Of a DNA stretch of 61,583 nucleotides, positions 9,131 through 43,126 are shown in pieces. The stretch lies in NCBI GenBank assembly GCA_018066805.1, contig JAGPVX010000017.1, positions 1 to 61,583 on the forward strand, read 5' to 3'. Within the stretch, counting starts at the first letter, position 1; each line of letters begins with the position of its first letter. A program made the position numbers and the translations under genes. The DNA comes from Paraperlucidibaca sp. (GTDB taxonomy: Bacteria > Pseudomonadota > Gammaproteobacteria > Pseudomonadales > Moraxellaceae). The notes below the pieces were generated by a model. The model saw nothing but the letters and a program-made list of their open reading frames with translations, was not told the origin of the DNA and ran no database searches.

Positions 9131-9150
9131 TTCGAATGTGTTGCTGACAT

Positions 9151-9180
9151 AAAAAAGCCCGCTGATGTGCGGGCTTTTTT
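9151..9180. terminator. Bidirectional terminator between ppiD and fabI
   Basis: AAAAAAGCCCGC (9151-9162) pairs with GCGGGCTTTTTT (9169-9180) over a 6-nt loop. The A run on one side and T run on the other let it serve both the plus-strand ppiD and the minus-strand fabI. Confidence 0.95.
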
Positions 9181-9193
9181 ATGTCTTAGCTAT

Positions 9194-15564: not shown

Positions 15565-17199
15565 TTATAGCCCGCGATTTCCTGCTTGGATGACCTGAGT
15601 GGCGGCATTGTTTCGTGGTAGTGAAACTGGCTCGCGTGAGGCCGTTGATGTGCTCGAGTTAAACACGTGCGCTTGATAAGCCGCAGCCGCAGGCGTGGGG
15701 ATGCTGAGCTCACGACCAATATCTAAAATGGTGCTGAGCTCTTCGTCATTGGCTGCGGCTAGCTGAGTCGCCGACAACTGATTTCGGCGCGCGATGCTGA
15801 ACCACGAGTCGCCACGCCGCACTTGGTAAGTGCGGCTATTAGCATCGATATAGTTAGCTCGAATAATCTCGGTGCTCACACTAGCCACGACAGCCTCGGG
15901 GCGACCTGAGGCATTGACCACACGTACATCCGAGGCAACAGATTGCTGAACTAACAAATGCTCGCTGGCAATATCTAAGTAGTTAGGCACATGCAAAAGG
16001 TAGGGGCCATCGGGAGCTAATTGATCGCGACGTAGCGCGGCATTGAGTATGCGAAGCTCGTCGAGTGGCACGCCAGAAAGTGTTGAGACTGTATCAAGGT
16101 CTAAGCTGCCTTTGGCGGCGACTGTGCGAAAATATGGGCGGTTTGGTATGGCGGGAATGCTCACGCCTGCAGAAATTGGGTCTTTAAACATCGACACCAC
16201 TGCGAGAAAGCGCGGCACATAATCCATAGCTTCTGCAGATAGTTTTAGTGACCAATAGTCATCGCCAAGGCCGCGTGCGTTATTTGCTTGAAGCGCGCGT
16301 GAAACCGTTCCTGGCCCAGCATTGTAAGAGGCGAGCACAAGCTCCCAATCACCGAACATGCCGTAGAGCTTGGCCAAATAGTCATAGGCGGCGCGAGTGG
16401 ATTCAAGCGGGTCACGACGTGCATCAACCCAGTTAGTTTGGCGTAAACCATATAGACGACCGGTGTCTGGGATGAACTGCCAAAGGCCGGCTGCATTGGA
16501 TTTTGATGTTGCTGCGGGGTCGTATGCGCTTTCGATTATGGGCAACAGCGCTAACTCTGTGGGCAGGCCGCGACGCTCGGCTTCGGCAACGGCAACAAAT
16601 AAGAAGCGTGAGGCTTTTGCCATTAACTCGTCGATGTATTTTTGCTGGCCGCTATAGCGCGAAAACTGTGCATCGATGCGTGAGTTATAGCGCGTGGGCA
16701 TGCTAAAGCCACGACGCAAGCGCTGAACTAAATCTTGGTTAGTAGCAGCGCTGGCTTTAGCCGGTGTGCTACGCGTTAAAATAATGGTTGGAGCGCTTAG
16801 CGCAGGATCATTGTCGACTTTAATGCTACTAGCAGGCTTGCTGATGACTGCAGCCGCAGTAGGTACTTTAGCGATAACTGATACTGATGCTGCGGCTTGC
16901 ACTGGAGTTGTTGCTGGGGCTGATGCAATTTCAGTTACTACAGCCGAAGCTAAAATGCTCGCAGGAGCAGGTGCAGGTGTAACAACTACGCGAGCCGCTG
17001 CCGGTTGCACGTCATTTTTCGCGATTGGTTTCATAGGCTGTGGTGGTACCACGATGCGCTGCTTTTGAATAATCGGGTAACTACGTTTAGCAACGGGTGC
17101 ACTGGCACAGGCCGATAAAAACAAAGCCGCTAGTAGCGCTAAAAGAACGCGCGGCTGTCGTGAGTTTCGGAGATTGTCTACAGAAATAAGCATGGGCAT
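15565..17199 (-). CDS. mltD: MltD-like membrane-bound lytic murein transglycosylase
   Basis: The enzyme cleaves peptidoglycan glycan strands to 1,6-anhydro-muropeptides. The 544-residue protein has a lipoprotein signal with lipobox LSAC (Cys31), an Ala/Pro-rich linker to about 130, an SLT (GH23) domain with the predicted catalytic Glu223 (LPIIESAYDP, then AAGLWQFIP), and one clear LysM peptidoglycan-binding repeat at about 457-503 (YQVRRGDSWFSIARRNQL). E. coli MltD carries two LysM units. It follows gloB by 24 nt and directly precedes yejABEF, suggesting joint transcription of cell-wall cleavage and peptide import. Confidence 0.93.
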   Translation of the reverse strand: MPMLISVDNLRNSRQPRVLLALLAALFLSACASAPVAKRSYPIIQKQRIVVPPQPMKPIAKNDVQPAAARVVVTPAPAPASILASAVVTEIASAPATTPVQAAASVSVIAKVPTAAAVISKPASSIKVDNDPALSAPTIILTRSTPAKASAATNQDLVQRLRRGFSMPTRYNSRIDAQFSRYSGQQKYIDELMAKASRFLFVAVAEAERRGLPTELALLPIIESAYDPAATSKSNAAGLWQFIPDTGRLYGLRQTNWVDARRDPLESTRAAYDYLAKLYGMFGDWELVLASYNAGPGTVSRALQANNARGLGDDYWSLKLSAEAMDYVPRFLAVVSMFKDPISAGVSIPAIPNRPYFRTVAAKGSLDLDTVSTLSGVPLDELRILNAALRRDQLAPDGPYLLHVPNYLDIASEHLLVQQSVASDVRVVNASGRPEAVVASVSTEIIRANYIDANSRTYQVRRGDSWFSIARRNQLSATQLAAANDEELSTILDIGRELSIPTPAAAAYQAHVFNSSTSTASREPVSLPRNNAATQVIQAGNRGL

Positions 17200-26590: not shown

Positions 26591-26630
26591 GACACAAAAA
26601 AGCCCGGCAATGACCGGGCTTTTTTGTGTC
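26591..26630. terminator. Bidirectional terminator between nfuA and the DAHP synthase gene
   Basis: A perfect 17-bp stem (26591-26607 with 26614-26630) has a GC core AGCCCGG/CCGGGCT and flanking A and T runs. It serves both converging genes. A second hairpin, GGGGAG/CTCCCC (26639-26659), lies between it and the stop codon of the minus-strand gene. Confidence 0.95.
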
Positions 26631-39770: not shown

Positions 39771-42047
39771 ATGTTAAGTCGGGAACTAGAACTGACCCTC
39801 AATGTGGCATTCCGTGAGGCAAGAGCAAAACGCCATGAGTTCATCACGGTGGAACATTTATTGCTGTCACTACTGGATAACGAGTCAGCAGTCGCTGCGC
39901 TACAAGCTTGCGGTGGCGAATCCGATGCCATGCGTCGTGAATTAACAACCTATATAGATGATGCAACGCCTGTGTTGCCAGAGCCCGATGGTGGGCGCGA
40001 GACACAACCTACGCTTGGCTTTCAGCGCGTTCTACAGCGCGCCGTGTTTCATGTACAGTCTTCCGGCAAGCGCCAAGTAGTCGGCGCTAATGTCTTGGTG
40101 GCGCTGTTCTCTGAGCAAGAATCGCATGCAGTGTATCTACTGAAGCAGCAAGGCATTGGCCGTCTAGATGTGGTGAATTACTTGTCACATGGAAGCTCAT
40201 CTCCAAATGAAGATGAGCCAAAAAGTAATGAGTCCTCTGAAGCAGAGGGTGGAGCTGAAGCCGTTGCCGATTCGGCATTGGTGAACTACACCGTTAATTT
40301 AAACGAGATGGCGAAAAAGGGCCGCATAGATCCGCTAGTTGGTCGCGAGCCAGAAATTGAGCGTGCGATTCAAGTGCTATGCCGTCGTCGCAAAAATAAT
40401 CCTATCTTGGTGGGTGAACCGGGCGTCGGCAAAACCGCCATCGCTGAAGGTCTGGCGTGGTTGATTGTCGAAGGTAAAGTGCCAGATGCTATTGCCGATG
40501 GCGTGGTGTATTCGCTGGATATCGGCGCTCTGCTGGCGGGCACAAAATACCGTGGCGATTTCGAAAAACGCTTTAAGGCTTTGATTAATGAGTTGATCGA
40601 TAAGCCCAGCGCCATTTTGTTTATCGATGAAATTCACACCATAATTGGTGCTGGCTCGGCTGGCGGCGGCGTGTTGGATGTTTCGAACCTGCTTAAGCCT
40701 GCGCTTTCTAACGGCACACTAAAGTGCATGGGATCAACAACTTACCAAGAGTATCGCAATCTATTCGAGAAGGACGGTGCGCTATCACGTCGCTTCCATA
40801 AGATCGATGTGGAAGAGCCCAGCGTTGATGAGACCTATCGCATTTTGCGTGGTCTGAAGTCGCGCTTTGAAGAGCATCACGGCGTGCGTTATCACGACAA
40901 AGCACTGCTCTCGGCCGCCACGCTTGCCGATCGCTATATTAATGAGCGCTTCCTGCCCGATAAAGCCATCGACTTAATCGACGAAGCTGGTGCTTTCCAG
41001 CGCCTGCAGCCGGTAAGCAAGCGCAAAAAAGTCATCACTGTTGCTGATATCGAAGAGATGGTGGCAAAAGTTGCGCGCATACCTGCAAAGGCTATTTCGT
41101 CTAATGACAAAGAAGCGCTGCGCAATCTTGAGCGTGATTTGAAAATGACGGTGTTTGGTCAAGATGCTGCCATTGATTCGCTAGCCGCCGCGATCAAATT
41201 GTCGCGCGCTGGCTTGAAGTCGCCCGAGAAACCAATTGGCAGCTTCTTGTTTTCTGGCCCAACGGGCGTTGGTAAAACCGAAGTCACGCGTCAATTGGCT
41301 CGCACGTTAGGCATTGAGTTGATACGTTTCGATATGTCCGAATATATGGAGCGTCACACCGTATCTCGCTTGATTGGTGCGCCACCAGGCTATGTTGGTT
41401 TTGACCAAGGTGGTTTGCTTACCGAAGCTGTGACCAAGCATCCGCATTGCGTATTGCTGCTTGATGAAATCGAAAAGGCGCATCCAGAGGTGTTTAACCT
41501 GCTGCTACAGGTTATGGATCACGGCACTCTGACAGATAACAATGGCCGCAAAGCTGACTTCCGTCATGTGGTGTTGGTTATGACGACTAACGCCGGTGCT
41601 GAACAAATCAGCCGCTCGAGCATGGGCTTTACGCATCAGGATCACAGTAGCGACGGTACTGAGGCGCTGAAGAAAACCTTCACCCCTGAGTTCCGTAACC
41701 GTCTCGATGGCATTATCGCGTTTTCTGCGCTCGATCCTTCGGTCATTGGCAGTGTGGTCGATAAGTTCTTGGTTGAGCTACAGGCTCAGCTCGACGACAA
41801 GCATGTGCTACTTGATGTCGATGAAGATGCACGTACGTGGTTGGCTGAGAAAGGCTATGACCGCTTGATGGGCGCGCGTCCGATGGCGCGTGTGCTGCAA
41901 GAGCACCTGAAGAAGCCGTTGGCCGAGATGATTCTTTTCGGCAAGCTTGCTGATAAAGGTGGGCGAGTTGCGGTGTCTGTTAAGGATGGAGCATTGGTGC
42001 TTGAGGCCGAGGTCGTTAGTAAGCGGGAGCTTGCTAAGACTGTTTAG
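39771..42047 (+). CDS. clpA: ClpA AAA+ unfoldase of the ClpAP protease
   Basis: ClpA unfolds substrates for ClpP. The 758-residue protein has the double-Clp N-domain (to about 150), a first AAA+ module with Walker A GEPGVGKT near 214 and a second with GPTGVGKT near 500. The ClpP-docking IGF-type loop would lie in the second module; a match is not obvious by eye. AGGAGAGGCAGG precedes the ATG. The gene ends 15 nt before the twin palindromes at 42062-42254. Confidence 0.97.
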   Translation: MLSRELELTLNVAFREARAKRHEFITVEHLLLSLLDNESAVAALQACGGESDAMRRELTTYIDDATPVLPEPDGGRETQPTLGFQRVLQRAVFHVQSSGKRQVVGANVLVALFSEQESHAVYLLKQQGIGRLDVVNYLSHGSSSPNEDEPKSNESSEAEGGAEAVADSALVNYTVNLNEMAKKGRIDPLVGREPEIERAIQVLCRRRKNNPILVGEPGVGKTAIAEGLAWLIVEGKVPDAIADGVVYSLDIGALLAGTKYRGDFEKRFKALINELIDKPSAILFIDEIHTIIGAGSAGGGVLDVSNLLKPALSNGTLKCMGSTTYQEYRNLFEKDGALSRRFHKIDVEEPSVDETYRILRGLKSRFEEHHGVRYHDKALLSAATLADRYINERFLPDKAIDLIDEAGAFQRLQPVSKRKKVITVADIEEMVAKVARIPAKAISSNDKEALRNLERDLKMTVFGQDAAIDSLAAAIKLSRAGLKSPEKPIGSFLFSGPTGVGKTEVTRQLARTLGIELIRFDMSEYMERHTVSRLIGAPPGYVGFDQGGLLTEAVTKHPHCVLLLDEIEKAHPEVFNLLLQVMDHGTLTDNNGRKADFRHVVLVMTTNAGAEQISRSSMGFTHQDHSSDGTEALKKTFTPEFRNRLDGIIAFSALDPSVIGSVVDKFLVELQAQLDDKHVLLDVDEDARTWLAEKGYDRLMGARPMARVLQEHLKKPLAEMILFGKLADKGGRVAVSVKDGALVLEAEVVSKRELAKTV

Positions 42048-42061
42048 GGGTGTTTTGGTTT

Positions 42062-42129
42062 GGGGTTGAGACCATGGGGTGGGTGAGCCACGCTGCGCTA
42101 TGCTTCACCCACCCCATGGTCTCAACCCC
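42062..42129. repeat. 68-bp perfect palindromic element, copy 1
   Basis: Arms 42062-42086 and 42105-42129 are perfectly complementary over 25 bp and enclose an 18-nt loop (GCCACGCTGCGCTATGCT). The loop and the inner six pairs (GGGTGA/TCACCC) recur, inverted, in copy 2 at 42187-42254 with one mismatch. The outer 19 pairs are unrelated to copy 2. It begins 15 nt after the clpA stop and probably also ends transcripts. Confidence 0.9.
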
Positions 42130-42135
42130 GCATTC

Positions 42136-42179
42136 GGAATCATCTGTGGCTTAGACCCTTGAGCCGCAGCCCAGATTCC
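42136..42179. repeat. Imperfect hairpin between the two palindromes
   Basis: GGAATC (42136-42141) pairs with GATTCC (42174-42179), and CTGTGGCT (42144-42151) with AGCCGCAG (42162-42169, one G-U pair), separated by a small internal loop. It has no sequence similarity to the flanking palindromes. Confidence 0.6.
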
Positions 42180-42186
42180 ACCCAAA

Positions 42187-42254
42187 GGTGCCGTGCCTGA
42201 GCACTGGGTGAAGCATAGCGAAGCGTGGCTCACCCAGTGCTCAGGCACGGCACC
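42187..42254. repeat. 68-bp perfect palindromic element, copy 2
   Basis: Arms 42187-42211 and 42230-42254 are perfectly complementary over 25 bp around the 18-nt loop AGCATAGCGAAGCGTGGC. The loop is the reverse complement of copy 1 except for one base. Total, arm and loop lengths are identical to copy 1, yet the outer 19 bp of the arms are unrelated. It lies 27 nt from the ppsR stop codon on the other strand. Confidence 0.9.
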
Positions 42255-42281
42255 GCTGTCAGTTAAAGACTAACGCTCAGC

Positions 42282-43106
42282 TCACAAAGACCGCCGCTTA
42301 AGCCCAACCGTCGCCATAATTCGAGTAGAAATCTCTTCAATCGACAAATGCGTCGCCTGAATAAACGGCACACCCTCACGGTTAAACATCGCCTCCACAG
42401 CGCGAACCTCTTTCTGACACTGGCTCAACGACGCATAGCTCGAATTTGCACGCCGCTCATTACGAATCGCAGACAAGCGCACCGGATCAATCGTTAAGCC
42501 GAAAATCTTATGCTTATGCTCGCGCAAGGAGCTAGGCAGGCGAAGATCATCAAAATCATCTTCGGTCAGCGGGTAGTTACCAACAAAAATCCCAAACTGC
42601 AAAGCCATATATAGCGACGTTGGCGTTTTGCCAGACCGTGATACGCCGACTAAAATAAGGTCCGCTTTATCGTAGTGTCGAGTGCGAGCGCCATCATCGT
42701 TATCGAGCGCGAAATGCACCGCATCGATGCGAATATTGTAGCTCTTGTTATCAATAATCGAATGCGACTTGCCGATTGCGTTAACTGCCTGAGTAGCAAG
42801 TTCGGTTTGTAATTTACCGACGAATGTTTCGAATACATCCATCATAAAGCCATCGGCACGCGCGATAACGTCACGGATATCTTTGTCGACGATGGTGTCG
42901 ATAATAATTGGGCGGTTTGCCGTGCCTTCTTGATTAGCTACGCGGTTGATTTCTTTTGCTACTGCCTCGGCTTTTTCAACGGTGTCGATATAGGGCAGGG
43001 TGCTCTCTTCAAACTCGACATTTTCAAACTGAGCAAGCAGGCTGTGACCTAAGGTTTCGGCTGTAATGCCGGTGCCATCGGAGACGAAAAATACAGTGCG
43101 CTTCAT
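42282..43106 (-). CDS. ppsR: PEP synthetase regulatory kinase/phosphorylase PpsR
   Basis: PpsR inactivates PEP synthetase by ADP-dependent phosphorylation of an active-site threonine and reactivates it by phosphorolysis. From ATG 43106 (274 aa) it begins [17 protein letters not shown] and carries the P-loop GVSRSGKT at 154-161. This ATG is chosen because GGGGAAAAAC precedes it; the in-frame ATG at 43118 would place that site inside the gene. It is divergent from its target ppsA. Confidence 0.95.
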
Positions 43107-43126
43107 GTTTTTCCCCATTTATATTT

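Follow-up and report, generated by a model that had tools for sequence, protein, structure and literature searches.

Two 68-bp hairpins, W1 and W2, lie in opposite orientation between the convergent genes clpA and ppsR in the window, by which is meant the whole 61,583-nt stretch of Paraperlucidibaca DNA that was analysed, and 12 further elements of the same kind were found in its genome and in a sister species. The family appears to keep one REP-type head while the stem varies by site, and template switching is the likely means by which the arms stay complementary, a reading given a probability of about one half. The elements are best read as orphaned REP-like 3'-end hairpins whose arms template switching likely keeps complementary, perhaps together with selection for the RNA hairpin. 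Both the REP-type head and the location behind stop codons were absent from the original prediction for this site.

The two elements of the window

The features of the region are listed in order of position, with the strand of the head given for the hairpin elements. The gene names are presumed from the protein sequences.

39771..42047, plus strand: clpA, convergent with the ppsR-like gene
42062..42129, minus strand (head): W1, 25-bp perfect arms and 18-nt loop, starting 14 bp past the clpA stop codon
42087..42104, minus strand: head of W1, AGCATAGCGCAGCGTGGC, with ATA/GTG around GC-GCA-GC
42130..42186, no strand: spacer between W1 and W2, with an imperfect hairpin of its own that lacks the head (-23.1 kcal/mol, RNA parameters)
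42187..42254, plus strand (head): W2, 25-bp perfect arms and 18-nt loop, 27 bp past the ppsR stop codon
42212..42229, plus strand: head of W2, AGCATAGCGAAGCGTGGC, with ATA/GTG around GC-GAA-GC
42282..43118, minus strand: ppsR-like gene, convergent with clpA

The predicted twin 68-bp palindromes, in which perfect arms of 25 bp enclose a loop of 18 nt, were confirmed at 42062-42129 and 42187-42254, as was the claim that they share a loop in opposite orientation with one base change: the loops GCCACGCTGCGCTATGCT and AGCATAGCGAAGCGTGGC are reverse complements save for a single base. The inverted core match between the elements spans 32 nt at 97% identity. The inner stretch common to the arms, TGGGTGA, is 7 bp long, which leaves 18 differing outer base pairs rather than the 19 first counted. 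The outer arms are unrelated, as had been claimed, with an alignment score of 14 against a shuffled 95th percentile of 15, so their likeness does not rise above chance.

Elsewhere in the 61.6-kb window perfect arms reach at most 17 bp, in two palindromes whose loops measure 6 nt. When W1 and W2 were folded on each strand as DNA and as RNA, they surpassed 200 of 200 shuffles. In the predicted fold the 25-bp stem is followed by a single bulged A, by GC/GC and by an internal loop (3x3, ATA/GTG), and a tiny GC-NNN-GC hairpin forms the tip; the predicted RNA energies are -58 to -61 kcal/mol. No T-rich tail or terminator-like site was detected at either element by a terminator scan covering loops of 3-8 nt or by reading the tails by eye. 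Against Rfam, 42061-42269 matched microRNA-type hairpin models only, all below the gathering score, and these were set aside as generic hairpin matches. BLAST of 42040-42290 against plasmids gave no match, and the core 26-mer occurred zero times in viral contigs. Searching the own genome with the 18-nt loop at up to 3 mismatches returned 3 matches (control 3), namely W1 and W2 at 0 and 1 mismatch and a third at 3.

Other hairpins are present in the same DNA. At 1995-2050 of the window, perfect arms of 16 bp enclose a 24-nt loop that itself contains a second hairpin; this structure lacks the head and lies 10 bp behind what is presumably a trigger-factor-like gene. Terminators with 17-19-bp perfect stems ending in a common GACAYAAAAAAGCC lie at 9146-9185 and 26591-26630 of the window and at 15997-16035 of stretch L033. 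Across 672 kb from the own genome GCTTTTTT occurs 93 times, and GCTTTTTTRTGTC accounts for six of these (three palindromes, both strands); across 400 kb from Paraperlucidibaca baekdonensis it accounts for none of 58.

Census of the family

Fourteen elements were found, seven in the own genome (G000, Paraperlucidibaca-like, an 81-contig draft of 2.13 Mb that is 93.59% complete) and seven in P. baekdonensis DSM 26022 (G001). The latter is the closest relative among the genomes compared, with the best-matching PpsR (90%) among the other six members of the genus. The own-genome elements are named W1, W2, A, B, C1, C2 and C3, and those of P. baekdonensis clpA, E1, E2, araCa, araCb, bfr and valS. 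Together they extend to 14 elements and two genomes the predicted combination of a conserved core with varying yet complementary arms.

The elements were reached by several searches. Of the 299 genomes of the family, only two contain the core 26-mer at up to 3 mismatches: the own genome has it twice and P. baekdonensis has it once. The site between htpX and an OYE-type gene holds two elements in P. baekdonensis, found by DNA search, and two in the own genome, of which A was first picked up by a palindrome scan; the OYE-type neighbour was identified as Oxidored_FMN in a Pfam run on eight neighbour genes of elements other than W1 and W2. Stretches around head-like matches yielded five elements at the bfr-araC site, and a sixth lies behind bfr in P. 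baekdonensis. The valS element of that species came from an order-wide head search, in which 6 of 390 genomes matched, G000 three times, G001 four times and four others once each. Those four single matches, in other genera, have 4-bp stems and were discarded as chance-level, the reversed control giving 7 matches. A degenerate-core scan of the genome collection added to P. baekdonensis a single match inside an open reading frame of Marinospirillum insulare, which was judged to be chance. In the own genome 672,235 of 2,134,968 bases were read, and degenerate heads elsewhere could be missed.

Head and long stem tend to occur together. A loose head expression has 998 matches in the G000 and G001 stretches, 11 of them with a stem score of at least 10, and exact matches to the longer heads in these two genomes have a long stem in every case. 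Conversely, 1,472,235 bases from five genomes contain nine perfect palindromes whose arms reach at least 17 bp and whose loops span 10-45 nt, and all nine hold the head, as judged with an expression written post hoc and with 40 stretches picked around loose head matches. No such palindrome occurs in 400,000 bases of genomes G017, G029 and G040. In viral contigs, a REP-like string returned 56 stretches, six of them a CGTAGGG-tagged short-stem REP and the rest with little or no stem.

Head sequence and genomic position

The head reads ATA, cap, GTR in 13 of 14 elements and ATA, cap, ATG in element A. The cap is GC-NNN-GC at clpA-ppsR and htpX-OYE. In the own genome the three bfr/araC elements have GGC-GAA-GCC, and in P. 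baekdonensis the three bfr/araC elements and the valS element have GGCG-AA-CGCC. The bfr/araC heads are thus alike within a genome and different between genomes (GGCGAAGCC vs GGCGAACGCC), and GGCGAACGCC recurs at valS. The head of element B is open in its predicted DNA fold. The heads probably descend from REPs whose transposase has been lost.

Eleven of the 14 elements lie 6-27 bp behind a stop codon. The exceptions are A and E2, which lie 94 and 90 bp behind htpX, past a T-tailed hairpin, and C2, which lies past C3. Inverted pairs occur at clpA-ppsR, at htpX-OYE in both genomes and at araC in the own genome, and single elements at bfr, at valS and at clpA of P. baekdonensis. Relative to the nearest gene end, 12 of 14 elements have the head in antisense (p = 0.006, uncorrected for shared sites), and C2 and valS have it in sense; the orientation of the head is conserved at all four position-matched sites. 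At 1590-1725 of stretch L053 in P. baekdonensis, the left arm of E2 is continuous with a repeat about 41 bp long (ACCACAATCGCAGGTGCTGA...).

The bfr-araC site also carries cargo. The gap between these genes is about 1 kb or less in genome G049, and its content differs between the two species (G000, contig C54, stretch L108, 6988-11424; G001, contig C3, stretch L236). In the own genome the cargo comprises DUF167, a formate/nitrite transporter and a PP2C-kinase fusion, and in P. baekdonensis an MmeI-like methyltransferase. Hairpin elements stand at both borders.

Stem divergence and pairing

Outer stems measure 17-27 bp in all 14 elements and are mostly unrelated between sites. The original prediction had named copies without extended arm pairing, and arms drawn from a few fixed families, as patterns that would speak for an ordinary REP-like repeat; all 14 copies found have extended arms, and these arms do not sort into few families. 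Across 308 outer-stem pairs only 5 are mismatched, all by transitions, with 4 in the 284 pairs of 13 elements and 1 in the 24 pairs of valS; since the extent of each stem was defined by its pairing, these counts are biased low. When read as RNA of the adjacent gene, the five mismatches are 2 G-U and 3 A-C (assigned by hand), with no bias to G-U. Pairing is poorer in the stretch between the head and the outer stem.

This pairing can be set against the divergence of the two species, which differ at 439 of 815 fourfold sites in clpA, ppsR, bfr, araC and htpX. In five position-matched element pairs (220 stem pairs), about 118 mismatches would be expected under free drift if the elements were present and perfect at the species split, and 3 are seen; without the uncertain araC pair the count is 2 in 172 stem pairs. 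Position-matched arms differ between the species, and each is self-complementary within its element. Compared with shuffles, the matched-arm alignments give p values of 0.0025 (W1/clpA), 0.04 (A/E2), 0.02 (B/E1), 0.06 (araC) and 0.07 (bfr), and a Fisher-combined p of 5e-5, for an orthology of arms that rests on short sequences and, at araC, on an unsure matching of elements. The top score among all arm pairs belongs to a non-positional one, C1 and the clpA element of P. baekdonensis, so that G-rich composition or exchange between sites could also explain the likeness of arms. W1 and that same clpA element are set apart by a block of 8 bp, which both arms of W1 contain and both arms of its counterpart lack.

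How the arms stay complementary

Template switching is favoured because the arms differ between species yet their pairing is near perfect. The templated correction of palindromes put forward in the original prediction is favoured on these grounds, although no switch event was observed. Under this proposal, the stable head would cause replication to stall, and the nascent strand would then fold back on itself and be copied from its own other arm, so that both arms are rewritten together. The scarcity of pairs other than Watson-Crick, the block change in both arms and the unvarying orientation of the head all fit template switching, and from them we infer such fold-back copying. The process is established for quasipalindromes of Escherichia coli, which are described as becoming more perfect through template switches (PMC7202029). 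For RNA stems it has been deduced, and those with compensatory changes are described as unusually rich in loops of very high stability in DNA (PMC8794818). As a more tentative extension, the head could be a standing switch site at which each passage of a replication fork can rewrite one arm from the other; such a self-correcting palindrome would retain head and pairing for as long as the species lasts, with a stem sequence that is free to vary.

Selection on the RNA may act beside this process or in its place. The hairpins probably form or protect mRNA 3' ends and would hence be kept by selection, and selection on the RNA 3' end likely retains the elements in place and could alone explain part of the pairing. 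The stronger form of this explanation, in which the elements are terminator-like or mRNA-protecting 3'-end structures whose pairing is kept by ordinary compensatory mutation under RNA selection with no templated copying, is less probable and yet a genuine competitor. The position of most elements close behind a stop codon and the strong predicted RNA folding agree with it. Moreover, at both clpA-ppsR and htpX-OYE genome G029 carries T-tailed terminators of the ordinary kind instead, and ordinary perfect hairpins of 17 bp in G000 and 13 bp in G017 stand behind valS; the hairpins at G029 clpA-ppsR and at valS indicate that gene-end stems turn over here anyway. However, point-by-point compensation should leave G-U pairs, whereas the few non-Watson-Crick pairs are divided between G-U and A-C as given above. 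The 8-bp block in both arms of W1 would require two matching events, and neither W1 nor W2 has a T-rich terminator.

That a mobile core enters new sites and gains its arms as inverted copies of the DNA beside it is rather improbable. It would accommodate common heads with arms that are unrelated between most sites, as well as the uniform bfr/araC heads of each genome and the recurrence of one of them at valS. At the htpX site of P. baekdonensis, the left-arm sequence of E2 occurs again in direct orientation some 41 bp upstream, preceded by the same 12 bp, and the inverted copy has different neighbouring sequence from the direct one, which is suggestive only. Nevertheless, no clean empty site was found, the extra arm sequence of W1 has no clear match in the flank of its sister (p = 0.52, a single test on W1 only), and copies are few. 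A REP-associated tyrosine transposase, for which the original prediction had proposed a search, did not turn up: the Y1 transposase (RAYT, PF01797) was detected in 0 of 7 genus genomes, the own genome being 93.59% complete, and in 5 of 14 controls. Several positions are common to species near fourfold saturation, and the elements are therefore not fresh insertions.

An ordinary REP/REPIN family moved by a transposase not seen here is very unlikely. The head anatomy resembles that of GTAG-3 REPs as described in PMC3733652, and inverted pairs occur at three sites; still, 13 of 13 elements lack GTAG at their feet, the stems exceed the 6-13 bp given for GTAG families in that source, 7 copies were found per genome and the Y1 transposase was not. 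An assembly or amplification artefact, conceivable for an 81-contig draft, is extremely unlikely given that P. baekdonensis DSM 26022, which was assembled independently, carries elements of this kind in the same places.

The question of how a long stem can change in sequence and yet keep its two arms paired is a long-standing one for REPs, terminators and RNA stems. One head with many stems, some of them co-positioned in near-saturated species, supplies natural before-and-after pairs in which template switching and RNA selection are separable, and would also show a possible fate of REP heads without a transposase.

Comparison with known systems

Text searches of the literature showed no report of such hairpin elements. 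Intrinsic terminators consist of a GC-rich hairpin followed by a run of T. The elements resemble them in placing a strong hairpin close behind stop codons, often between convergent genes, but differ in a loop of at least 18 nt with a conserved head and in the lack of a T-rich tail at W1 and W2.

REPs offer the closest likeness for the head. In the GTAG-3 REPs of the E. coli type, as set out in PMC3733652 (Di Nocera et al., 2013), the loops end in GC/GC, GGC/GCC or GRCG/CGYC and are set apart from the stem by di- or trinucleotides that do not pair, and the stems of GTAG-family REPs measure 6-13 bp; a conserved AA-GC mismatch in the stem is described for E. coli REPs (PMC8266576). Shared with the GTAG-3 account are the same three cap types (GC, GGC, GGCG), the intergenic place and, at three sites, inverted dimers, whereas the elements here have 17-27-bp stems that differ between most sites and 7 copies found per genome. 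GTAG stands at the palindrome foot in 0 of 13 elements and likewise not at valS (by eye), and copy number is not high, at 7 found in each genome, a count that could miss degenerate heads beyond the stretches read. The elements are thus REP-like in head, intergenic place and inverted pairs but not in tag, stem length, copy number or transposase, and on these four counts they are a variant of REPs and not a member.

The behaviour of the stems resembles that of template-switch hotspots. The quasipalindrome hotspots described in PMC7202029 (Klaric, Perr and Lovett, 2020) were studied in short-term mutation assays, whereas the present case is inferred from a two-species comparison with one head at several sites; alike in both is arm complementarity gained or kept by copying from the other arm, and between the two species changes in both arms have raised or kept complementarity. 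Similarly, the RNA-hairpin template switching described in PMC8794818 (PNAS 2022) concerns microRNA and rRNA stems, unlike the 17-27-bp intergenic bacterial stems with a common REP-type head reported here, and has in common with them stem changes in both arms at once, with stable loops that favour switching.
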